Shown: in pieces, positions 1 to 38,822 of the stretch
Layout of the letters: each line of letters begins with the position of its first letter
How positions within the stretch are numbered: position 1 is the first letter of the stretch
From: a virus
Direction: 5' to 3' (one strand)
IMG/VR virus record: IMGVR_UViG_3300023174_000012
Location: 1 to 38,822 of that record
DNA: 38,822 bases
Position numbers and translations under genes: made by a program
Notes under the pieces: generated by a model
Told to the model about the DNA's origin: nothing
Database searches by the model: none
What the model saw: only the letters and a program-made list of their open reading frames with translations

Positions 1-45
1 TCGGCGGTGCAGGTCTTGTACAGAAGGCGTATGACCGTCTTCTTG
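1..45. repeat. Terminal redundancy of a circular contig (left copy)
   Basis: Bases 1-45 are identical to 38778-38822. The capsid reading frame continues without a break across the join, so the overlap marks a circular or circularly permuted genome of 38,777 bp. A repeat this short is more likely an assembly overlap than a packaged direct terminal repeat. Confidence 0.95.
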
Positions 46-9135: not shown

Positions 9136-9858
9136 ATGGCTAAAATTAACAAAGGAACACTAGCCCTAGGCTGGTGCGATAACGGCAATACAGATGGTAA
9201 GTTTACAGAGGGTATGGTCAGCGTAGCCTTACAGGCTCCTGCTAATGGTATCCCTATTACACACAGTATGCGAGTACAAGGCAATCAGATTGGTCGCCAG
9301 CGTCAGGTATTATTTGACTACTGGGCAGACCAAATTAAGACTGACTGGTTACTCTGGGTAGATTCAGATATCGTCATTGACATCCACGTAGTAACTAAAC
9401 TATGGGATGCCGCTGACAAGATTGGTAAGCCAGTTGTATCTGGTACTTATTTTATTTCTAAGCAGAACGAAGGCACACTGGCCCAACCATTCCCTGCTTT
9501 ATTTTATAATATTGATGAGCATGTAATACAGCACGTGCACCCTTTACCTAACAATCAAGTAATTCCTGTTGATTCAGCAGGTCTTGGATTCTGCCTTATG
9601 CATAAGTCTGTAATTTCTGCGCTACGCGAGAAGTTTCCAGGCCAGTCTATGTTTGCAGAGCAAGAAGGCATTGGCGATAAGTTCGTAGGAGAAGACATTG
9701 TATTCTTCCGCAAACTCAAAGAAGCAGGAGTTCCTGTTCACGCACACACAGGTGCGTTAGTACGACATATGAAACGATTCTCACTAGATGCTGATTACTA
9801 CAGCCTCTACTGGAGTTGGCAAACATTAAAGAACCAAATAGAGCAAGATAAACCTTAA
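9136..9858 (+). CDS. GT-A type glycosyltransferase-like protein, 240 aa
   Basis: The core TDWLLWVDSDIVID has the metal-binding DxD (D76-S77-D78) of GT-A glycosyltransferases. The upstream RQRQVLFDYWADQ helix and the downstream GEDIVFFRKLKEAGV and HTGALVRHMKR segments fit the acceptor and metal-binding side of family-2-like enzymes. It would transfer a sugar from a nucleotide donor. It is encoded between tail genes, so glycosylation of a tail or capsid protein, or of the host surface, is plausible; the target cannot be read from sequence. The ribosome binding site is AGGGGA. Confidence 0.75.
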   Translation: MAKINKGTLALGWCDNGNTDGKFTEGMVSVALQAPANGIPITHSMRVQGNQIGRQRQVLFDYWADQIKTDWLLWVDSDIVIDIHVVTKLWDAADKIGKPVVSGTYFISKQNEGTLAQPFPALFYNIDEHVIQHVHPLPNNQVIPVDSAGLGFCLMHKSVISALREKFPGQSMFAEQEGIGDKFVGEDIVFFRKLKEAGVPVHAHTGALVRHMKRFSLDADYYSLYWSWQTLKNQIEQDKP

Positions 9859-19408: not shown

Positions 19409-19585
19409 TTACCCTCCTGTAGAATAGAAGCCAGAGCCATTAAACTTAACTGGTGGTGCTGAGTATAACCTCGACATAGGTTCATTACACTTGTCGCAGT
19501 AGGGTATGATTTCATCTTCTGTCATGCCTCTAGTAACAGTGATAACCTCTGAGTCATTGTCACACTTGTAATCATAACTAGCCAC
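19409..19585 (-). CDS. FmdB-like zinc-ribbon protein, 58 aa
   Basis: ASYDYKCDND at the start and YCDKCNEPMSRLYSAPPVKF later match FmdB-family small zinc ribbons, which usually begin with a similar Tyr-Lys-Cys segment. Three of the four expected cysteines are present (C8, C30, C33); the second is replaced by Asp. The GTG at 19585 overlaps the upstream TAG by one base; a longer start at 19627 would extend into the preceding gene without need. The function is unknown, possibly regulatory. Confidence 0.72.
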   Translation of the reverse strand: MASYDYKCDNDSEVITVTRGMTEDEIIPYCDKCNEPMSRLYSAPPVKFNGSGFYSTGG

Positions 19586-19977
19586 TAGTACCAACCTTTC
19601 TTCTGATGAAACTTCCATGCCATGCAAGGCGTGCCGTATCTGTGCATGATGTAGGCAAAGCCTCTGTCAATCTGTAATGTGGCAGGCAACTTAGGGTCTA
19701 GCCCTAGTATCTGAGGTATACCCCCAGCGTTCTTACCCATTACCTTTACCTTGTTGTATGCTTCCGTTCGCCAGTTGGACTCCTGTGTCCATAGTTTATC
19801 TAAGCACTCGTACTGATTAACAGACCATGCAAGTACTACATCCTGAGCATAAGCCTTGCTATCTGCAACTACCCATTCCCTTACTGGCATTGATACTTCC
19901 TCTGGTCGGCTGGCCGACCGAGTAAATAGAAACAACACCACTGTTACAATAAGTAATACAATCAGTTTCTTGGTCAT
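19585..19977 (-). CDS. Exported lytic transglycosylase-like protein, 130 aa
   Basis: Residues 4-19 form a hydrophobic signal or anchor. The domain after residue 50 (YECLDKLWTQESNW, GGIPQILGLDPKLPA, YIMHRYGTPCMAW, HQKKGWY) is a well-known actinobacterial transglycosylase-like module with E66 as likely catalytic residue and C58/C118 as a possible disulphide. It should act on peptidoglycan outside the membrane. A palindromic repeat lies in its coding start; an internal ATG at 19890 with AGAGGAA upstream could give a second, cytoplasmic form. It overlaps whiB by ATGA. Confidence 0.78.
   Translation of the reverse strand: MTKKLIVLLIVTVVLFLFTRSASRPEEVSMPVREWVVADSKAYAQDVVLAWSVNQYECLDKLWTQESNWRTEAYNKVKVMGKNAGGIPQILGLDPKLPATLQIDRGFAYIMHRYGTPCMAWKFHQKKGWY
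19904..19919. repeat. 16-bp palindromic repeat, copy a
   Basis: GGTCGGCTGGCCGACC. It lies within the transglycosylase coding start (encoding RSASRP) and 13 bases upstream of its internal ATG at 19890. Confidence 0.9.
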
Positions 19978-20387
19978 ACTACACCTTCCAAGTAGGGTCT
20001 AATCCTTGTCGCAAACATAACCGCTGCTTCTTCTTCATCAGAGGTAACCTTACGACTTGGACCTACTTCATCGCTGTATCTTGAACGAACCTTTCGTCCT
20101 TTATTGTAAGGGTCGACACGATAATCAAGCCCTCGTTCCTTAGCCATCGCTATTCTTTGACCAGCAAGTATACCACCCCAGATGCCATACGCTAGGTTCT
20201 CAGGCTTCATACCCTCTTCTAAACACTTCTCCCGAATAGGGCATCGGCCACACATGTTCATAGCATACTTAATCTCTGGCACCATACGCCTTAGAATAGT
20301 GTCAGGTCTGCCACCATTAGGCACAGTTGGAAACCATGCGTCAGGGTTGGCATCCCCACTACAAAGACCTTGCAATTGACTAATCAT
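19974..20387 (-). CDS. whiB: WhiB-family iron-sulphur transcription regulator, 137 aa
   Basis: The four cluster-binding cysteines are C9, C46, C49 and C55 (GLCSGDANPDAWFP; MNMCGRCPIREKC), followed by the GIWGG turn and a basic C-terminal region, as in actinobacterial WhiB/Wbl proteins. These bind sigma factor region 4 and change promoter choice; phage versions are known to interfere with host regulation. This is the best host indicator in the window. The ATG at 20387 is preferred; a longer frame from 20423 overlaps the acidic gene upstream. Confidence 0.9.
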   Translation of the reverse strand: MISQLQGLCSGDANPDAWFPTVPNGGRPDTILRRMVPEIKYAMNMCGRCPIREKCLEEGMKPENLAYGIWGGILAGQRIAMAKERGLDYRVDPYNKGRKVRSRYSDEVGPSRKVTSDEEEAAVMFATRIRPYLEGVV

Positions 20388-20514
20388 CTCCCCACATCCT
20401 GTCTGGTTCTCCGTCGTAATCAATCAGGTCGTCAAGTGTATCCTCGTCAAGTTCATCATACTCATCATCATCCAACTCGAATACATCATCATTCAATGGT
20501 GGTTCGTAACTCAT
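20380..20514 (-). CDS. Small, very acidic protein, 44 aa
   Basis: The ATG at 20514 follows GAGGAGGGGCT, a strong ribosome binding site, and overlaps the upstream TGA by ATGA. About half the residues are Asp or Glu (VFELDDDEYDELDEDTLDD). Very acidic phage proteins of this size can be DNA mimics or partners for basic host proteins, but this is only inference. It overlaps the whiB start by eight bases. Confidence 0.7.
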   Translation of the reverse strand: MSYEPPLNDDVFELDDDEYDELDEDTLDDLIDYDGEPDRMWGDD

Positions 20515-20696
20515 AGCCCCTCCTCCTCGCATAGTTGTTCGTAGGCATCCATTACAATGTCAGGGACATCGTTGCTATCTATGTCATTGTCACCTCTAAA
20601 CCATTCTGCGTGTACTCCATACTCACCCACATAGGTATGCACAGAGTAATCTCCAAACCGCCATTCATACTTAGTTTCCGTAACATCCATGCTCAT
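20511..20696 (-). CDS. Hypothetical protein, 61 aa
   Basis: An acidic protein with several Tyr and Trp residues (YEWRFGDYSVHTYVGEYGVH), probably a small beta domain followed by a helix. It is coupled at both ends, TAATG with the upstream gene and ATGA with the downstream one. It is unrecognised. Confidence 0.68.
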   Translation of the reverse strand: MSMDVTETKYEWRFGDYSVHTYVGEYGVHAEWFRGDNDIDSNDVPDIVMDAYEQLCEEEGL

Positions 20697-20827
20697 TATG
20701 CCACCTCTCGTAGTAGTAATCGGACTTGTGCTATCTTCTTATCTAGCCGTATGTCTGTCTCTGCTGTAAGCATTTGCAGGTAGTCTATCAGGACTTCCCG
20801 CAATTGTTCCTTCTGTTCTGTCGTCAT
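20696..20827 (-). CDS. Small helical protein, 43 aa
   Basis: The ATG at 20827 has AGGAG upstream, and the stop overlaps the next start by TAATG. It encodes one or two charged helices with a Leu-rich pattern (REVLIDYLQMLTAET, RLLLREVA) that could be a coiled coil. The function is unknown. Confidence 0.62.
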   Translation of the reverse strand: MTTEQKEQLREVLIDYLQMLTAETDIRLDKKIAQVRLLLREVA

Positions 20828-20834
20828 GATACTC

Positions 20835-21044
20835 CTATCCTGCATTGTGAGAGGGTACGAATACTCGATACACCTCTGCGTTGATTAGTTCTTTAGCCCA
20901 GTCAAGGGCTTTCTCTTGCGTGTCGAATGGACCATAATGCACAAGTCCGTCGACAGTTTGTGTCGAGGTAATCCACCCAGACACCCACATTCCCTTGAAC
21001 GGGTCATGGTCGGCTGGCCGACCACTAGAAGCCGAAGTAGTCAT
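20835..21044 (-). CDS. Hypothetical protein, 69 aa
   Basis: The part from WVSGWITSTQ to AEVYRVFVPS looks like a compact alpha/beta domain. The first 18 residues cover the palindromic repeat (encoding SGRPADH), so they may be a translated regulatory element rather than part of the fold. The ATG at 21044 has AAAGGTAGG upstream and overlaps the amidotransferase stop by 20 bases. An in-frame ATG at 20990, 17 bases after the palindrome, is an alternative start with a poorly spaced AAGGG. Confidence 0.62.
   Translation of the reverse strand: MTTSASSGRPADHDPFKGMWVSGWITSTQTVDGLVHYGPFDTQEKALDWAKELINAEVYRVFVPSHNAG
21008..21023. repeat. 16-bp palindromic repeat, copy b
   Basis: GGTCGGCTGGCCGACC within the start of the 69-residue gene and directly after the amidotransferase stop region; 17 bases upstream of the in-frame ATG at 20990. 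Confidence 0.9.
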
Positions 21045-21861
21045 TGTAATAACCTACCTTTCCTTTCTTGTTGTATGCGTATCGGTCAGACTCAGGTGTC
21101 CAGCATAGGCAAGTATCTTGGTACATACCATCGCAGTCATAGCAAGTAAAGCACATCTCGCAGTAGTAAGGGTTAGAGTCTAACTCACCTACACTGAGAC
21201 AGTGAGCACATGAAGCCTGTTCACCTGCACCATAACCGCTATCGTTAAGTGCTACGGCAGATGAGTAACTGGGTGTATCTAGGTAACTGCCCCAAGCAGA
21301 TTGCTTGTAGGTAGAGTTAGACCACCACATTCCCTCATCATCCCAGTGACCAGCGTTCTCGTTGATGATGTAGCAGGTCTCCTTAGCACTAGGGTCAAGG
21401 GTGAAGATAACTATCTTACTACCTAATGCCCACTTGCTAACCATAGCCCACACATGGTCGTCGTCTAATGCAGCAACACCACCCATAGCAGGTAAGGTAT
21501 CCTCTGCAAAGATACGCGTGTCACTTCTGCGGTCGCCTGCTGAGATGCTGATGTCAAGGATACCATTGTGTGCTAAGTATGTATCAGGATTGCTAGGCAC
21601 CTTGAATGGGTGACAGTTATCCTCATTCTTGACACCATGCGTAGCATAGCGAGCATGGAACATAGCATAACTATCTGGATACTGCTTGCGTACTTCTAGG
21701 AACTGCTTGATTACTTTCTTGCTGGACATGCCACGACCAGTGACAATGCCATTGGGCGTGATTACCGCAAAGCCAAAGCCATGCGGATTATTACATGATG
21801 CACATTCCAAGTCCTTCTTACGAGGCGTGGAATTAGGCGAGGCTACAACGAGTAGACACAT
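21025..21861 (-). CDS. Class II glutamine amidotransferase-like protein with Cys-rich tail, 278 aa
   Basis: Met1 is followed by Cys2, the N-terminal nucleophile of class II (Ntn) glutamine amidotransferases. Further motifs fit the family: HGFGFAV (27-33), FHARYATHG (68-76, glutamine binding), CHPF (83-86), LAHNG (96-100, oxyanion region) and SDTR (113-116). It would release ammonia from glutamine or act on a gamma-glutamyl amide. Residues 218-253 hold eight cysteines in CxxC pairs, a zinc-binding tail unusual for the family. It starts directly after the amidoligase stop (TAAATG), so the two are a functional pair. Confidence 0.85.
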   Translation of the reverse strand: MCLLVVASPNSTPRKKDLECASCNNPHGFGFAVITPNGIVTGRGMSSKKVIKQFLEVRKQYPDSYAMFHARYATHGVKNEDNCHPFKVPSNPDTYLAHNGILDISISAGDRRSDTRIFAEDTLPAMGGVAALDDDHVWAMVSKWALGSKIVIFTLDPSAKETCYIINENAGHWDDEGMWWSNSTYKQSAWGSYLDTPSYSSAVALNDSGYGAGEQASCAHCLSVGELDSNPYYCEMCFTCYDCDGMYQDTCLCWTPESDRYAYNKKGKVGYYNDYFGF

Positions 21862-23115
21862 TTAGTTGCTCACATTCTGGTCGGCTAGCCGACCGCTAAT
21901 TACTAACTTATCGAGACGGGCTGATAGTTCTGGGTATAACACTTCATTCTGGAATACATACCACATGAAGTTATCTGCACTCAATGCACCTTGCAGTACA
22001 TCTTGCACAGTAAGATTGCGTGTGTACTCAACGCTGGCGTGCGCTAAGTCTAGATGGGCTTTGATTGTCTCACCATTGACAGTACCTCGGAAGATACGCA
22101 TCTCTAGTGTCTCGCGGTTGTTGGTATTAACCGCTGAGTATCGGTCGGAGTGGTGGTCGGGTTGTAACTTGTGCGCAAAGGAACGCTTAGAGATAATCTC
22201 ATAGCCCCCATCAAAGGTAAAGATGCGCTCACCTTCTGAGTTTCTAGCATACTCGCGTACATTGATGTCAGTGAACTTAGCCCATTGTTCAGATGAGCGA
22301 CCCGCTAGTGTCTCGTATAGTTCCTGATTAGAATACACAAGGTTGAGGAAGCGGTGCATGTGTGCGCCATTCTTAAACCCAGTGCGTGAGATGTGGATGT
22401 GTAAGCCACAGGTACGAGTATCCCATGACTTAACTCGGATACCTGATTGAGTGCGCAAGGCTTCCAGTACTGCAAAGAAGTCTCCAGCCTCATGCTTGAA
22501 GAAGTCATGTGACATTGGATGTGTCACTATCTCGAAACCATGATTGAGAGAGCCGTCATGTTTGAGATAGGCTAAGTCCATTGACTCCAGTTGGTGTGCG
22601 TACTCGGCAGACTCTCTGAGGTTGTCGCGTGCTTCTACCTCAATCTCTAGCCCAAAGAATAAACGCTCATCATTATTGGTCGAATGGAAGATAGCATCAG
22701 GGCGGTAACTGTAATCATGAATGATACGGATACCATCCTCGCTACCGCATCTATCACAGCCGTCAGCATTGTACTCGTCACAATCGTCACACCAGTAAGC
22801 ATTGTTATCACAGCAACCTGCACACCAATGCTCAGCCCTATCTGTGACATAGTACGAGGTATCAGAGTTGTACCCCTCGCATGACTCGCACCAATAGGCA
22901 CGCCTCTCGGTACACGACTCACACCATAAAGAGTCGTCGTCTACTGTGTGAAAGACATCATTGGATGTACCAACACTGTCGCAACGCTGGCAAATCTGGG
23001 CGCAATCATCACACACCAGACTATCGTAATCTGTCGTGATTAGGTTGTCTGCATCAGTTTCGTATTCACATACCGAACAACTGTGTAAAACAACTTCATC
23101 AACTTTATCTGTCAT
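21862..23115 (-). CDS. Amidoligase-like (COOH-NH2 ligase) with N-terminal Cys-rich domain, 417 aa
   Basis: The core (FGLEIEVE 154-161, KHDGSL 185-190, FEIVTHP 194-200, CGLHIHIS 236-243, then a segment ending LEMRIFRGT) matches the amidoligase family with a glutamine synthetase-like fold, which joins amino groups to carboxylates using ATP. Residues 13-123 carry about 17 cysteines as CxxC pairs, probably several zinc ribbons for target recognition. Families of this type occur next to glutamine amidotransferase genes, as here. The start at 23115 has GGGAAGG upstream. A palindromic repeat lies upstream and another within its 3' end. Confidence 0.85.
   Translation of the reverse strand: MTDKVDEVVLHSCSVCEYETDADNLITTDYDSLVCDDCAQICQRCDSVGTSNDVFHTVDDDSLWCESCTERRAYWCESCEGYNSDTSYYVTDRAEHWCAGCCDNNAYWCDDCDEYNADGCDRCGSEDGIRIIHDYSYRPDAIFHSTNNDERLFFGLEIEVEARDNLRESAEYAHQLESMDLAYLKHDGSLNHGFEIVTHPMSHDFFKHEAGDFFAVLEALRTQSGIRVKSWDTRTCGLHIHISRTGFKNGAHMHRFLNLVYSNQELYETLAGRSSEQWAKFTDINVREYARNSEGERIFTFDGGYEIISKRSFAHKLQPDHHSDRYSAVNTNNRETLEMRIFRGTVNGETIKAHLDLAHASVEYTRNLTVQDVLQGALSADNFMWYVFQNEVLYPELSARLDKLVISGRLADQNVSN
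21879..21894. repeat. 16-bp palindromic repeat, copy c
   Basis: GGTCGGCTAGCCGACC, a perfect palindrome. It is translated as GRLAD near the amidoligase C-terminus and lies 17 bases upstream of the amidotransferase ATG. Confidence 0.92.
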
Positions 23116-23130
23116 TTGCCTTACCTTCCC

Positions 23131-23146
23131 TGTCGGCTAGCCGACC
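23131..23146. repeat. 16-bp palindromic repeat, copy d
   Basis: TGTCGGCTAGCCGACC, with one end base changed. It is intergenic, 15 bases upstream of the amidoligase ATG, with the ribosome binding site in between. Confidence 0.9.
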
Positions 23147-23152
23147 ATTTAC

Positions 23153-23171
23153 TTATTGCGCTTTGCAATAA
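23153..23171 (-). terminator. Seven-pair hairpin upstream of the amidoligase gene
   Basis: TTATTGC/GCAATAA stem with a five-base loop between the 56-residue gene and the amidoligase gene. There is no T-run, so it may be an mRNA processing or partial termination site. It lies seven bases before palindrome copy d. Confidence 0.45.
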
Positions 23172-23178
23172 GAGTATT

Positions 23179-23349
23179 CTATGCCTTAACTACTTTGCTG
23201 TCAATTATGGCATTTGCTAAGGTATCTCTGGCACTCTCCACGACTTTGGCCAGCCCTGCATACCCTTGCTTCACCATGCGGTCATGCTCAGCCCTCAGTG
23301 CTTGTCGCACAAGGTTCACCTCAGCATCAGTAAAAGTTACAGTAATCAT
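23179..23349 (-). CDS. Small helical protein, 56 aa
   Basis: It starts at ATG 23349 with an ATGA overlap to the gene upstream. The sequence (FTDAEVNLVRQALRAEHDRM, GLAKVVESARDTLANAI) predicts two or three helices. I do not recognise a family. Coupling to its neighbour and the correct strand support it as real. Confidence 0.65.
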   Translation of the reverse strand: MITVTFTDAEVNLVRQALRAEHDRMVKQGYAGLAKVVESARDTLANAIIDSKVVKA

Positions 23350-23531
23350 CTCTGAAAACTCATAACTGTCTCGAACACCACATCATTGAGGTAGTCCACC
23401 ATTTGCTCCCATTCATCTATTGATAGGTCATGCCCGAGGATTTCTTGGACAAGTTGGTAATCGAGTTTGGACTCCCAGACAGTGTTTGTGTCGGAAATTC
23501 CTGAGACTAAATCATCTGCGCTTGGGTACAT
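23346..23531 (-). CDS. Hypothetical acidic protein, 61 aa
   Basis: The ATG at 23531 overlaps the upstream stop (TAATG) and has GTGAGG upstream; an in-frame GTG at 23537 is the alternative. The protein is acidic and helical (LVQEILGHDLSIDEWEQMVD). It is unrecognised and coupled to both neighbours. Confidence 0.65.
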   Translation of the reverse strand: MYPSADDLVSGISDTNTVWESKLDYQLVQEILGHDLSIDEWEQMVDYLNDVVFETVMSFQR

Positions 23532-23680
23532 TACCACACCTCACGAATTCGCTTGACGATACGCAGTGCTACGACAATGCCTAGCACAGTAAGCCATGCG
23601 CGGTGATACAAGTAAATGTCACCAAAGTAAGTTTCAAGGCTGATGCCCCACTTGCTTACTTCTAAGTTGAACAGTTCCAT
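23531..23680 (-). CDS. Small membrane protein, 49 aa
   Basis: ATG 23680 follows GAAAGG at good spacing. The longer in-frame reading back to 23812 runs through a palindrome and the tRNA-like element and is rejected. Residues about 28-42 (AWLTVLGIVVALRIV) form a single membrane helix followed by a basic end, so the C-terminus is probably cytoplasmic. Such small membrane proteins can serve in exclusion or envelope modification; the function here is unknown. Confidence 0.65.
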   Translation of the reverse strand: MELFNLEVSKWGISLETYFGDIYLYHRAWLTVLGIVVALRIVKRIREVW

Positions 23681-23700
23681 TTGATAACCTTTCAGTACAT

Positions 23701-23716
23701 GGTCGGCTAGCCGACC
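23701..23716. repeat. 16-bp palindromic repeat, copy e
   Basis: GGTCGGCTAGCCGACC, perfect palindrome, 20 bases upstream of the ATG at 23680. Confidence 0.92.
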
Positions 23717-23742
23717 AGTTAATAGCGATTTGCTACCAACGC

Positions 23743-23791
23743 GCTCACCGCAGGAATTGAACCTGCGCTCCACAATGTCACCAGAGTGAGC
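23743..23791 (-). other. tRNA-like element: T-arm plus acceptor-like stem
   Basis: On the minus strand a consensus T-arm (stem GCAGG/CCTGC, loop TTCAATT; 23750-23766) is followed by a GGTGAGC strand able to pair with GCTCACT at the 5' end. Only 18 bases lie between the 5' strand and the T-arm, too few for D and anticodon arms, so it is not a normal tRNA gene. It may be a tRNA remnant, the 3' part of a host tRNA retained as an attachment-site relic, or a tRNA-mimicking RNA in the operon leader. Confidence 0.45.
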
Positions 23792-23795
23792 CACC

Positions 23796-23826
23796 AGCCT
23801 TTGCCTGCCCAAATTCAGGCAAGGCT
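23796..23826. other. Eleven-pair hairpin next to the tRNA-like element
   Basis: A stem of 11 pairs with a single-base bulge and an eight-base loop, located just upstream (minus strand) of the tRNA-like element in a 179-base stretch without a gene (23681-23859). No T-run follows on either strand, so it is more like a structured RNA or processing site than a terminator. Confidence 0.5.
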
Positions 23827-23859
23827 ATCCGCTAAGGTCTTTAGTCTACTGCTTAAAGA

Positions 23860-23964
23860 TTATTGGGTCAAGCCTTGTTCACACTTCGGACACTTAACAA
23901 TTATCTCAGTGTAGTTATACTCTACCAATTCTCCTGTATAGTCGCGTTCGTAATAGGTTTTCAC
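23860..23964 (-). CDS. Very small CxxC protein, 34 aa
   Basis: GTG at 23964 with AAGGAG five bases upstream; it overlaps the preceding gene by GTGA. It encodes KTYYERDYTGELVEYNYTE followed by a single CPKC near the end, possibly half a zinc ribbon that binds zinc as a dimer. It is small, but the translation signals are good. Confidence 0.58.
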   Translation of the reverse strand: MKTYYERDYTGELVEYNYTEIIVKCPKCEQGLTQ

Positions 23965-24092
23965 ATTGACTCCTTGTTAGATGCCTCACGCATAGCGATT
24001 ACTCCGCGTTCATAGCGTTCACGCTCTGCCTTCTGCTCGTTCATGATGTTCACCTTCACTTGCATACTCTCTATAAACTCTTCAACTGTCAC
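23961..24092 (-). CDS. Small helical protein, 43 aa, first gene after the promoter
   Basis: GTG at 24092 with GAAAGGA upstream, 19 bases after palindrome copy f. It encodes a charged helix (KVNIMNEQKAERERYERG). It is the first gene downstream of the best leftward promoter (24175-24203). The function is unknown. Confidence 0.6.
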   Translation of the reverse strand: MTVEEFIESMQVKVNIMNEQKAERERYERGVIAMREASNKESM

Positions 24093-24111
24093 TGCCGTTC
24101 CTTTCTGTTGT

Positions 24112-24127
24112 GGTCGGCTGGCCGACC
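24112..24127. repeat. 16-bp palindromic repeat, copy f
   Basis: GGTCGGCTGGCCGACC, in the leader between the promoter at 24175-24203 and the GTG at 24092 (19 bases). Confidence 0.92.
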
Positions 24128-24174
24128 GCTTGGGTTAGTTATTAGCAAAGGTCGTACCCCTTGCCAATGACTTA

Positions 24175-24203
24175 AGTATAGGCCTTAAACATTATTTGTG
24201 CAA
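24175..24203 (-). promoter_or_regulatory. Leftward sigma70-like promoter
   Basis: TTGCAC, 17 bases, TATACT on the minus strand, close to consensus with ideal spacing. Transcription would begin near 24168 and enter the small-gene operon. Palindrome copies g and f lie just upstream of the -35 and downstream of the start respectively, so a protein binding both could repress by looping or block both ends. Confidence 0.7.
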
Positions 24204-24225
24204 CCCTTGTTATTCATCAGATAGT

Positions 24226-24241
24226 GGTCGGCTGGCCGACC
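24226..24241. repeat. 16-bp palindromic repeat, copy g
   Basis: GGTCGGCTGGCCGACC, 22 bases upstream of the -35 element of the leftward promoter. Confidence 0.92.
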
Positions 24242-24254
24242 ATGACTCATGCCG

Positions 24255-24359
24255 TTGTCGCAAGTCGGTATCTGTCGCCAATCGCTCGCAAAGTTTGTGT
24301 CGGATTTTTTCTTGTCGTAGGTCGGTGGCTGTCGTCGCTCGCTCGAAAGTTTGTGTTGG
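24255..24359. repeat. Two-copy imperfect tandem repeat of about 49 bp
   Basis: Copies at 24255-24303 and 24312-24359 share TTGTCG, GTCGGT, CTGTCG, TCGCTCG and AAAGTTTGTGT in the same order. They are in non-coding DNA between promoter and terminator. A binding array, small RNA or plasmid-type control locus is possible. Confidence 0.7.
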
Positions 24360-24392
24360 TTTGTGTCGGGACGACCAAATTTTTTGGGCATG

Positions 24393-24422
24393 AAAAAACC
24401 CCCGCCCCTTTCGGGGCGAGGG
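24393..24422 (-). terminator. Strong leftward intrinsic terminator
   Basis: Read on the minus strand: a ten-pair GC-rich stem with a GAAA tetraloop followed by six T residues. It ends the transcript of the 199-residue gene, whose stop codon is 17 bases upstream. Confidence 0.92.
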
Positions 24423-24424
24423 CT

Positions 24425-24440
24425 GGTCGGCTGGCCGACT
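24425..24440. repeat. 16-bp palindromic repeat, copy h
   Basis: GGTCGGCTGGCCGACT, one base changed at the end, where it overlaps the stop codon of the 199-residue gene. Confidence 0.88.
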
Positions 24441-25038
24441 ATGCTTCAATAAACATCTTGCTTTCGATTTCTGCTGTGATGCTGTTGAGCAGGTCAATCT
24501 CCGCATCACCTATTGCGCTTGGGTCAATTCCAACCACTAGCGCATAGACGGCTTGAAGTGACTCCAACAGGCTCGCGCTTTTCTTTTCTTTTGCTGGCTT
24601 TCCGCTGGCTTTTGCCTCTTTTGCCTTGCGTGTCTTTTCTGCTTGCGCGTCATTGACCAACTTTTCCATGTCAGAGAATGAGTGCTTTTCTGCCTCACCT
24701 TTTCCGAGTAGGTCATAGGCTTTTGCTGCAAGGGTTAAGGCCTTCTTAAGAGGTAGTGCGCGAAACTCCGCATTTTTCTTTTCTAGTGCCTTGAAAGTTG
24801 GGAGTGTGCGCACCTGTGATGAGGTGATGAGCGGTGACACCTGTGCAGTGTCATCGATGCTTTTCTTAATCGAGTTGATGCTGGCACTCTGAGCCTCGAT
24901 GATGTCGGCCAATGCTAAGACCGCTGTGCGGTTGGCCTTTTCATTGTTGGTTGTGCTTTTGCAGAATGTTCTCCAAGCGGTGTTCACTGCTGGGATAGTT
25001 GTGTTCACTTTTGCTTTTGGTGTTGTTGCTTTTGTCAT
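24439..25038 (-). CDS. Hypothetical helical protein, 199 aa, own transcription unit
   Basis: A mainly helical protein with a basic linker (residues about 135-153: EKTRKAKEAKASGKPAKEKK) between two helical parts. The N-terminal part starts with a Thr/Lys-rich arm. It begins at ATG 25038 behind AAAGGCTCC and ends in a dedicated terminator. It has its own promoter region and is flanked by palindrome copies h and i. It is a candidate for the protein that binds these repeats because it is transcribed alone and first from the divergent region, but no DNA-binding motif is recognised. Confidence 0.7.
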   Translation of the reverse strand: MTKATTPKAKVNTTIPAVNTAWRTFCKSTTNNEKANRTAVLALADIIEAQSASINSIKKSIDDTAQVSPLITSSQVRTLPTFKALEKKNAEFRALPLKKALTLAAKAYDLLGKGEAEKHSFSDMEKLVNDAQAEKTRKAKEAKASGKPAKEKKSASLLESLQAVYALVVGIDPSAIGDAEIDLLNSITAEIESKMFIEA

Positions 25039-25060
25039 TTTGGAGCCTTTCGATTTGGGT

Positions 25061-25110
25061 ATGGCGTTGTTGCCATGTCTTTATTGTAGTGCATAAATAC
25101 GATTTGCAAC
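25061..25110 (-). promoter_or_regulatory. Leftward promoter and leader hairpin of the 199-residue gene
   Basis: On the minus strand TACAAT (25083-25088) is a fair -10 with TTGCAA about 15-16 bases upstream. In the leader an ATGGC/GCCAT hairpin (25061-25076) precedes the ribosome binding site. The -35 spacing is short, so the start point is uncertain. Confidence 0.45.
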
Positions 25111-25174
25111 ACCATTTGGGAAAGTTTTTTTTGAGCGTGGCGGGCGGGCGCGTGAGCGTGAGCCTACGCGTGGC

Positions 25175-25190
25175 GGTCGGCTGGCCGACC
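25175..25190. repeat. 16-bp palindromic repeat, copy i
   Basis: GGTCGGCTGGCCGACC, upstream of the promoter of the 199-residue gene, in a short GC-rich patch; the rightmost copy. Confidence 0.92.
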
Positions 25191-29383: not shown

Positions 29384-29950
29384 ATGACTACTTTGGTAGC
29401 GATACAGGGTGACGGATGGTCGGTACTAGGGTGTGATTCCCGATTAAGCGATGAGCATGGTCGTTTTCAAGTAAGTAAGACACCAAAGATTGTAGAAAAC
29501 AATGGTGTATTGATTGCTGGTTGTGGTTCATCTCGCGCAAGCAATGTATTACATTATGGCTATACTCAACCTAAGCCAACTGTAAAAGAAGATTTGAATA
29601 CTTACATGACACAGAAGTTCATTCCGCAAATGCGTAAGAACTTTGTTGATGCAGGTATTGATATGAAAGAGGACGGCGATGTTGCGCAAAACGAAGGTGG
29701 ATTCCTCGTTTCCATCAAGGGGCAAGTTTTTTCGATTTCTGATGATTACTCTTGGGATACCGATGTTCGTAATGTATATGTTATGGGTAGCGGTGGTGAT
29801 GTCGCCCTCGGTGCATTGGCAGCGTTGGGTGTGGAAAAAGTAAAGACAGTTAATCAAGCAGAGACAATGATTCGTAAAGCAATTGCTATTGCAATCCAAT
29901 ATGATAACATGTGCTCTGAACCAATTCATACATTTAGACAATTTAAGTAG
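29384..29950 (+). CDS. Proteasome/HslV-like Ntn-hydrolase, candidate head-maturation protease, 188 aa
   Basis: The N-terminus MTTLVAIQGDGWSVLGCDSR fits proteasome beta and HslV subunits: removal of Met would expose Thr as nucleophile, D18 corresponds to the conserved Asp17, and K35 (KTPKI) is near the position of Lys33. GSGGDVALGALAAL matches the conserved GSGG helix start. It would be a threonine protease. It lies between portal and virion genes, where phages normally encode the capsid maturation protease, and no ClpP- or herpesvirus-type protease is present. Its precise role is inference. Confidence 0.75.
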   Translation: MTTLVAIQGDGWSVLGCDSRLSDEHGRFQVSKTPKIVENNGVLIAGCGSSRASNVLHYGYTQPKPTVKEDLNTYMTQKFIPQMRKNFVDAGIDMKEDGDVAQNEGGFLVSIKGQVFSISDDYSWDTDVRNVYVMGSGGDVALGALAALGVEKVKTVNQAETMIRKAIAIAIQYDNMCSEPIHTFRQFK

Positions 29951-38728: not shown

Positions 38729-38822
38729 ATGCCTAACGCATATACATCCACAGGCTCTACCACTCTTGGTGGTACAGTCGGCGGTGCAGGTCTTGTACAG
38801 AAGGCGTATGACCGTCTTCTTG
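38729..38822 (+). CDS. Major capsid protein, 5' part (continues at base 1)
   Basis: The ATG at 38729 follows TTGGAGGTGA. The first 16 codons (MPNAYTSTGSTTLGGT) lead into the terminal redundancy, and the frame joins exactly to the frame open from base 3. The complete protein has 399 residues; see the entry at 1-1151. Confidence 0.9.
   Translation, partial: MPNAYTSTGSTTLGGTVGGAGLVQKAYDRLL
38778..38822. repeat. Terminal redundancy (right copy)
   Basis: Identical to bases 1-45; marks closure of the circle. Confidence 0.95.

Follow-up and report, generated by a model that had tools for sequence, protein, structure and literature searches.

A ligase and an amidotransferase encoded side by side

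The window analyzed here is the whole 38,822-base virus record IMGVR_UViG_3300023174_000012 of IMG/VR, and our subject is a pair of adjacent genes on its minus strand. The first, at positions 21862–23115, encodes a 417-residue protein that we assign, from a PF12224 match, a structure model and superposition on YbdK, to Amidoligase_2, a family of COOH-NH2 ligases of glutamine synthetase (GS) fold. The second, at 21025–21861, encodes a 278-residue putative class II glutamine amidotransferase with Cys2 as nucleophile, as judged by its motifs and by Z scores of 13.6–14.2 against GlmS, EgtC and PurF. The ligase stop codon and the amidotransferase start codon are joined as TAAATG. An earlier note on this DNA had reported adjacent genes with this junction, ligase motifs and about 17 N-terminal cysteines in the first protein, and Cys2, class II motifs and eight C-terminal cysteines in the second; all of these were confirmed in the sequence. 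Because the first and last 45 bases of the window (1–45 and 38778–38822) form an identical direct repeat, it is probably the complete, circularized genome of a phage.

Among the 180 loci that four scans of IMG/VR yielded, some are overlapping parts of a single contig; three scans took the best 80 of 576, the best 80 of 560 and the best 80 of 157 and cover closer relatives. Both genes were present in 166 of the 180 loci, and the 14 single-gene loci end at a contig edge. After removal of duplicates, 104 distinct pairs remained, and in every one the two genes share a strand, the ligase precedes, and the inferred gap is −32 to 37 nucleotides (nt). Since order and strand are kept throughout these closest IMG/VR pairs, the pairing is more than chance. 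Conservation values given below for relatives refer to the same 104 pairs.

Catalytic domains

The ligase matches PF12224 at 36.5 bits (Pfam gathering cut-off 22) and carries the motifs FGLEIEVE, KHDGSL and CGLHIHIS. Conservation, modeling and superposition place its GS-like catalytic core, with GxExE, DGS, GxHxH and ExR motifs, at residues 150–408 (21892–22668, minus strand). In the AlphaFold2 model, which has a mean predicted local distance difference test (pLDDT) score of 91.1, this core superposes on YbdK (1r8g) with Z 12.4 over 219 residues and a root-mean-square deviation (rmsd) of 3.7; glutamine synthetases follow closely, and plant glutamate-cysteine ligase is also among the fold relatives. 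Fold comparison (VIA) covered mainly ligase residues 147–417 and amidotransferase residues 1–192, and barely included the zinc-type parts described below. Residues E157, E159, D187, H239, H241, E338 and R340 are the same in 100–103 of the 104 relatives, with gaps in the remainder, and R343 varies (R in 84, K in 19). The protein is accordingly classed as an Amidoligase_2 member with a predicted GS-like fold.

The amidotransferase begins Met-Cys and carries HARYATHG, HNG and SDT. Its match to Pfam GATase_6 (PF13522) reaches 22.2 bits, below the cut-off of 27, and places it outside the curated model. Despite that score, the fold comparison supports membership of the class II, or N-terminal nucleophile (Ntn), glutamine amidotransferase superfamily: the model (pLDDT 81.8), whose predicted catalytic domain spans residues 1–190 (21292–21861, minus strand), superposes on GlmS (1xff) with Z 14.2 over 173 residues (rmsd 3.7), on EgtC with Z 13.8 and on PurF with Z 13.6, and the HxRxATHG and HNG motifs align with those of PurF and human GFAT. 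C2, R71, T74 and H75 are found in 104 of 104 relatives, N99 and G100 in 103 and D114 in 101; wherever they are aligned the tested motif residues are the same, save for T115, which is once S. Starts in relatives were set by a Met/Val/Leu-Cys pattern, which bears on the C2 count and on gaps. Both folds that had been named beforehand as a test of the earlier note are thus predicted (GS-like, Z ~12; class II Ntn, Z 14.2), and the loss of ATP-site or Cys2 residues in relatives, which would have spoken against it, was not seen in the 104 pairs.

Cysteine-rich head and tail

Seventeen cysteines of the ligase fall within residues 13–123 (C13, 16, 35, 38, 42, 45, 65, 68, 76, 79, 98, 101, 102, 109, 112, 120 and 123). 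This N-terminal head (22747–23079, minus strand) can be read, from the sequence and from LIM profile matches, as three CxxC-x18/19-CxxC units followed by a short CxxC-x7-CxxC. Among its paired cysteines, C79 is kept in 87 of 104 relatives, C123 in 50 and the others in 97–100, with gaps otherwise; the unpaired C102 is not conserved. When a profile of 78 ligases was compared with solved structures, PINCH LIM chains were the best match (E 0.0053); c-type cytochromes also matched (E 0.07), so cysteine content may contribute to the LIM match. A Clostridial homolog of the ligase scores 26.4 bits against Pfam LIM, above the cut-off of 22.9, and the window ligase itself has no Pfam LIM match. By its sequence, we describe the head as LIM-like.

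The amidotransferase ends in a tail with eight cysteines (218, 221, 234, 237, 240, 243, 251 and 253) at residues 218–253 (21103–21210, minus strand), with two putative zinc sites. Each cysteine is kept in 99 of 104 relatives, with gaps in the other five; model confidence in the tail is only ~62–80. Median identity to the window is 31% for the head without its cysteines, 59% for the ligase core, 77% for the amidotransferase core and 45% for the tail without its cysteines. On these values, the zinc-type parts appear as a fixed cysteine scaffold with a fast-changing surface.

Partner exchange in bacterial and archaeal genomes

The 49 loci found in a scan of bacterial and archaeal genomes were pooled with two order-level surveys at a ligase score of at least 50 bits, with six duplicates dropped. 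A class II amidotransferase lies directly downstream of 67 of the resulting 80 distinct ligase open reading frames (ORFs); eight run off the contig and five have no such neighbor. The partner is not always of the same kind, as 48 of the 67 best match a GlmS-like profile, built from three Clostridial proteins only, and 19 match the window-type profile. This exchange for another class II lineage suggests that glutamine hydrolysis, the property that the two lineages would have in common, is what the ligase needs. In most Clostridial loci the ligase bears a Cys head and the amidotransferase is GlmS-like, with no more than one Cx2[C/H] motif in its C-terminal part, and at two Clostridial loci (L200 and L217) the partner is of window type and lacks the tail.

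In Nocardia, ligase-amidotransferase pairs occur in tandem; both proteins carry cysteine motifs, and some of the pairs are accompanied by an extra unpaired ligase. Four loci (L190, L191, L195 and L198) are ligase-amidotransferase-ligase-amidotransferase arrays, and in L190 and L191 a third, unpaired ligase lies ~2–4 kb further on. Around one Nocardia pair, 1 of 10 ORFs tried had Pfam matches (DUF2637 strongest), and a mobile setting of the Nocardia pairs is only suspected. Genes for a conjugation coupling protein, for a resolvase and for a recombinase are among the neighbors of two Butyricicoccus loci, one of which has Cas genes close by. The genome that holds one Butyricicoccus locus has nine ligase profile matches, six of them strong, on different contigs; among 147 genomes of its order, 18 have a ligase match and 11 a strong one (>140 bits). 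In the second order surveyed (that of genome G002), 192 of 200 genomes match the amidotransferase profile, only 3 at more than 140 bits, the other listed matches being weak. Pairs were also found on mycobacterial plasmids, with motifs on both proteins, and on a 4 kb contig of a Lokiarchaeota metagenome-assembled genome (MAG), without zinc motifs. In a phage collection, the LUZ24 ligase has 282 matching records, mostly distant ones. Bifidobacterium phages carry an amidotransferase annotated as 155 residues, with no recognizable ligase as neighbor and a 281-residue neighbor without a Pfam match.

On one Clostridial MAG contig (L218:1533–3845) a ligase and a GlmS-like amidotransferase share a 770-residue open frame with an internal Met-Cys. 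We rejected this fusion as proof of joint action, since an Ntn enzyme with its Met-Cys inside the frame would be inactive, barring a restart of translation. In 187 loci (the 180 from IMG/VR, the window and six phage records) no ORF exceeded 30 bits with each of the two profiles.

The zinc-type module on either subunit

We counted a zinc-type module as present where two or more Cx2[C/H] motifs precede the ligase core or follow amidotransferase residue 180, in a small set of 20 pairs hand-picked for diversity. It lies on the amidotransferase only in 12 (LUZ24, phiEco32, RIO-1, SE131, O4, PA11, CVT22, Alcaligenes QDWS535, Vibrio BA6, Vibrio Vp_R1, Cronobacter GAP52 and Aeromonas LAh_6), on the ligase only in 3 (MEP402, Manatee Spring phage and Acinetobacter 313), on both in 2 (Marvin and a Mycobacterium intracellulare plasmid) and on neither in 3 (a Rhizobium phage, Vibrio 172P1 and Lokiarchaeota); the window family is a further case of both. 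Of the 53 other proteins of at least ~200 residues in 12 of the loci that are complete and unspliced, 2 would qualify by the same motif count, one of them a primase/helicase. Judged by motifs, placement follows lineage: amidotransferase only in the phiEco32/LUZ24 type, ligase only in Clostridia and a few phages, and both in actinophages, Nocardia and mycobacterial plasmids. A putative zinc module able to sit on either subunit fits partners that act as one complex.

Head and tail also diverge together. Across 93 pairs, head and tail distances correlate beyond both cores with a partial r of 0.30, a value reached in 0 of 2000 permutations in a comparison that ignores relatedness. Cross-protein partial correlations with the cores are lower (head versus amidotransferase core 0.19, tail versus ligase core −0.02).

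Relation to described systems

Phage amidoligase/amidotransferase pairs are already in print for phiEco32, LUZ24-like phages, Marvin and OM43 phages, as passages of PMC3517423, PMC3890496 and PMC10580990 attest. The cassette of the phiEco32/LUZ24 type resembles the window pair in joining Amidoligase_2 to a class II amidotransferase in an early region, with CxxC pairs on the amidotransferase C-terminus. It differs in that its ligase is headless and lies beside a second ligase, a RimK-like ATP-grasp protein and a cyclotransferase; no ATP-grasp, PF14395 ligase or cyclotransferase was found among the 40 window ORFs, the pair included, that were scanned with Pfam, some short ORFs lying outside that scan. 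Modification of the wall together with exclusion of other phages was proposed for phiEco32 and is repeated in passages of PMC10580990 and PMC11318856. That role is a hypothesis from gene context, and the pair to which it applies is widespread in phages. Closer to the window are gp105 and gp106 of Marvin and their relatives (19 Mycobacterium phage records), a homologous pair with 32–35% identity, the same order and cysteine motifs on both proteins, which differs in having ~80 nt between the genes and a shorter head (4 CxxC). Pairs of the Marvin type are annotated as hypothetical or glutamine amidotransferase domain proteins.

The phage pair itself is therefore known, and what is new here is the LIM-like ligase head, the zinc-type module that shifts between subunits, the partner swap and the Nocardia arrays. 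None of these four was found in searches of open-licence papers; an earlier mention in Iyer 2009 or Mageeney 2012 is possible. Passages of PMC5705681 and PMC7824862 had no bearing on the pair.

A proposed two-subunit, glutamine-dependent amide ligase

Our preferred reading, held with moderate confidence, is that the products of the two genes form a single glutamine-dependent amide ligase of two subunits, whose zinc modules hold the subunits together, hold them onto a target, or both. We base it on the strict pairing, the partner swap, the conserved motif residues, the predicted folds, the conserved cysteines, the presence of the module on either subunit and the precedent of MurT/GatD; complex formation, ammonia transfer and zinc binding are what we infer from them. 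After loss of Met1, Cys2 of the class II subunit would hydrolyze glutamine to release ammonia. The GS-fold subunit would activate a target carboxylate with ATP and join the ammonia to it to form an amide. The LIM-like, putative zinc modules would take no part in the chemistry; they would bind the two subunits to each other and/or the complex to a macromolecular target, most likely a peptide-bearing one such as a host protein or a wall precursor.

MurT/GatD, a peptidoglycan amidotransferase that amidates the D-Glu of the wall precursor, is likewise a two-gene ligase and glutaminase that makes an amide with nitrogen from glutamine. HisH, the glutaminase with which GatD has been compared, is a class I enzyme and not an Ntn enzyme with an N-terminal Cys, and MurT has a Mur ligase fold, whereas the window ligase is a PF12224 protein with a predicted GS-like fold. 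By analogy, then, the pair may work like MurT/GatD without being a member of that system. A cysteine-rich, probably zinc-binding (zinc-ribbon-like) insertion of MurT contributes to its interface with GatD, according to the part of PMC6085368 that describes it. If our reading is true, unrelated folds have reached the same ligase-glutaminase-zinc design; and should the zinc module act as adaptor in a two-subunit amidotransferase, the LIM-like head could be used as bait for the target.

The earlier note had supposed that the two zinc domains recognize the same target or each other, in a system acting on a host protein, a wall precursor or DNA, an interpretation that our results support in part. 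Its idea of a unit gains from the change of subunit and from the co-divergence of head and tail, although the latter ignores relatedness; the tail on the amidotransferase, on the other hand, is dispensable, given the 48 of 67 genome partners that are GlmS-like and have at most one motif there. Between removal and ammonia supply, the two roles offered for the second protein, the data lean to ammonia supply.

Several observations weigh against the two-subunit ligase. Three of the 20 diverse pairs have no zinc-type module on either protein. Partial correlations within each protein (head versus ligase core 0.47, tail versus amidotransferase core 0.33) are higher than those between proteins. Homology of the ligase head with the amidotransferase tail was considered and rejected, the hhalign pairing of head units 3 and 4 with the tail being weak (P 0.0023, probability 5%). 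Four Nocardia loci (L190, L191, L196 and L197) hold further ligase copies without a partner, and the ligase of Clostridioides phage AR1086-1 (28% identity) is both headless and partnerless. In RIO-1, PA11, O4, CVT22, Vibrio BA6 and Vibrio 172P1 the two genes lie apart, and the annotated ones among these phages have in the same cluster a gene of ATP-grasp or RimK-like type, in most cases alongside a second ligase, which suggests that more than one reaction may be involved. Finally, EgtC, which removes a gamma-glutamyl group, ties with GlmS in the fold comparison (Z 13.8 versus 14.2).

The last point leads to the main rival, which we judge improbable: conjugation followed by removal. Here the ligase would couple an amino acid, glutamate or another, to a target or a metabolite, and the Ntn enzyme would subsequently hydrolyze the gamma-glutamyl amide. 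EgtA and EgtC of ergothioneine synthesis offer a model, as a ligase and a class II-type Ntn enzyme that act on a gamma-glutamyl bond; EgtC matches our amidotransferase model, and the fold relatives of the window ligase include YbdK and plant glutamate-cysteine ligase. EgtA/EgtC differ from the window pair in that EgtA belongs to the glutamate-cysteine ligase type and that the pathway is metabolic. It is the tie of EgtC with GlmS, together with a published degradative role, that makes this the main rival: in its account of a "peptidoglycan modification cassette" in PSA-HP1, PMC5498523 counts a glutamine amidotransferase and a gamma-glutamyl cyclotransferase as peptidoglycan degradation genes. 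Against it, the HxRxATHG, HNG and SDT motifs are kept, the first two aligning with PurF and GFAT, and neither a cyclotransferase nor an ATP-grasp gene was found among the 40 scanned window ORFs. An enzyme and its reverse expressed from one overlapping two-gene unit would, moreover, be futile unless timed.

We give less credence to a role for the pair in making a small metabolite or a modified nucleotide or RNA, with zinc modules that bind nucleic acid. Cysteine-rich CxxC modules often do so, and the AR1086-1 ligase gene lies directly before an RlaP-type RNA-repair gene, with KptA ~4 kb upstream. These neighbors were seen only with that headless, partnerless relative, and the domains that the head matches most closely, LIM domains, are mainly protein-binding. 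Least probable, and in our view very unlikely, are two metabolic enzymes that act independently and merely accompany each other in an auxiliary cassette, such as one for recycling host glutamine: the passages of the OM43 phage paper on the pair treat it as auxiliary metabolic genes (PMC10580990), but the constant order in 104 pairs, the partner swap, the shared zinc-type module and the co-divergence of head and tail argue otherwise.

A wider and more doubtful proposal can tentatively be added. Phages, actinobacterial plasmids and genomes, Clostridial mobile elements and possibly archaea might share one modular amidation machine, in which a GS-fold ligase works with class II glutaminases that can be exchanged and with a LIM-like zinc adaptor on either subunit. 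Its fast-changing zinc surface would aim it at a host-specific protein or wall precursor, and it would rewrite that target by amidation during takeover.

Palindromes and neighboring genes

The palindrome GTCGGCTAGCCGAC lies just upstream of the ligase start (23132–23145), inside the 3′ end of the ligase gene, 18 nt before the amidotransferase start (21880–21893), and just past the amidotransferase stop (21009–21022). Its pattern, GTCGGC-NN-GCCGAC, has nine exact copies, all within window positions 19905–25189 (beginning at 19905, 21009, 21880, 23132, 23702, 24113, 24227, 24426 and 25176), against 0.63 expected; nine were reached in 0 of 100 shuffles. Six of the nine stand 14–21 nt before the minus-strand start codon of an ORF of at least 43 residues. 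In many relatives another palindrome occupies roughly the corresponding position ahead of the amidotransferase start; it often recurs within the locus of the relative and, in some lineages, has TATAAT inside. The palindromes are possibly phage-specific operators or start-associated sites.

Pfam and PHROGs matches among the window genes include a terminase, portal, capsid, DnaB-like helicase, primase-type protein and WhiB regulator, the last of which suggests an actinobacterial host. The best PHROGs families of the two pair proteins (16683, 22302 and 25883) have no assigned function. A known anti-phage defense system was rejected, as PADLOC matched none of the five proteins tested to a defense family. 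Downstream of the pair on the same strand, and adjoining WhiB, a 130-residue protein (19585–19977, minus strand) with a hydrophobic N-terminus and transglycosylase PHROG matches is a possible wall-active neighbor. Directly after the portal gene, positions 29384–29950 (plus strand) encode a 188-residue protein starting MTTLVAIQ that matches Pfam Proteasome at 25.9 bits (cut-off 22.4) and found no convincing match among solved structures. Its relatives comprise 206 candidate IMG/VR stretches, and some phage ones are annotated as "peptidase HslV family" or protease; it is possibly an HslV-type prohead protease. A glycosyltransferase is encoded at 9136–9858 (plus strand), in PHROG 34859, whose category is moron, auxiliary metabolic gene and host takeover.

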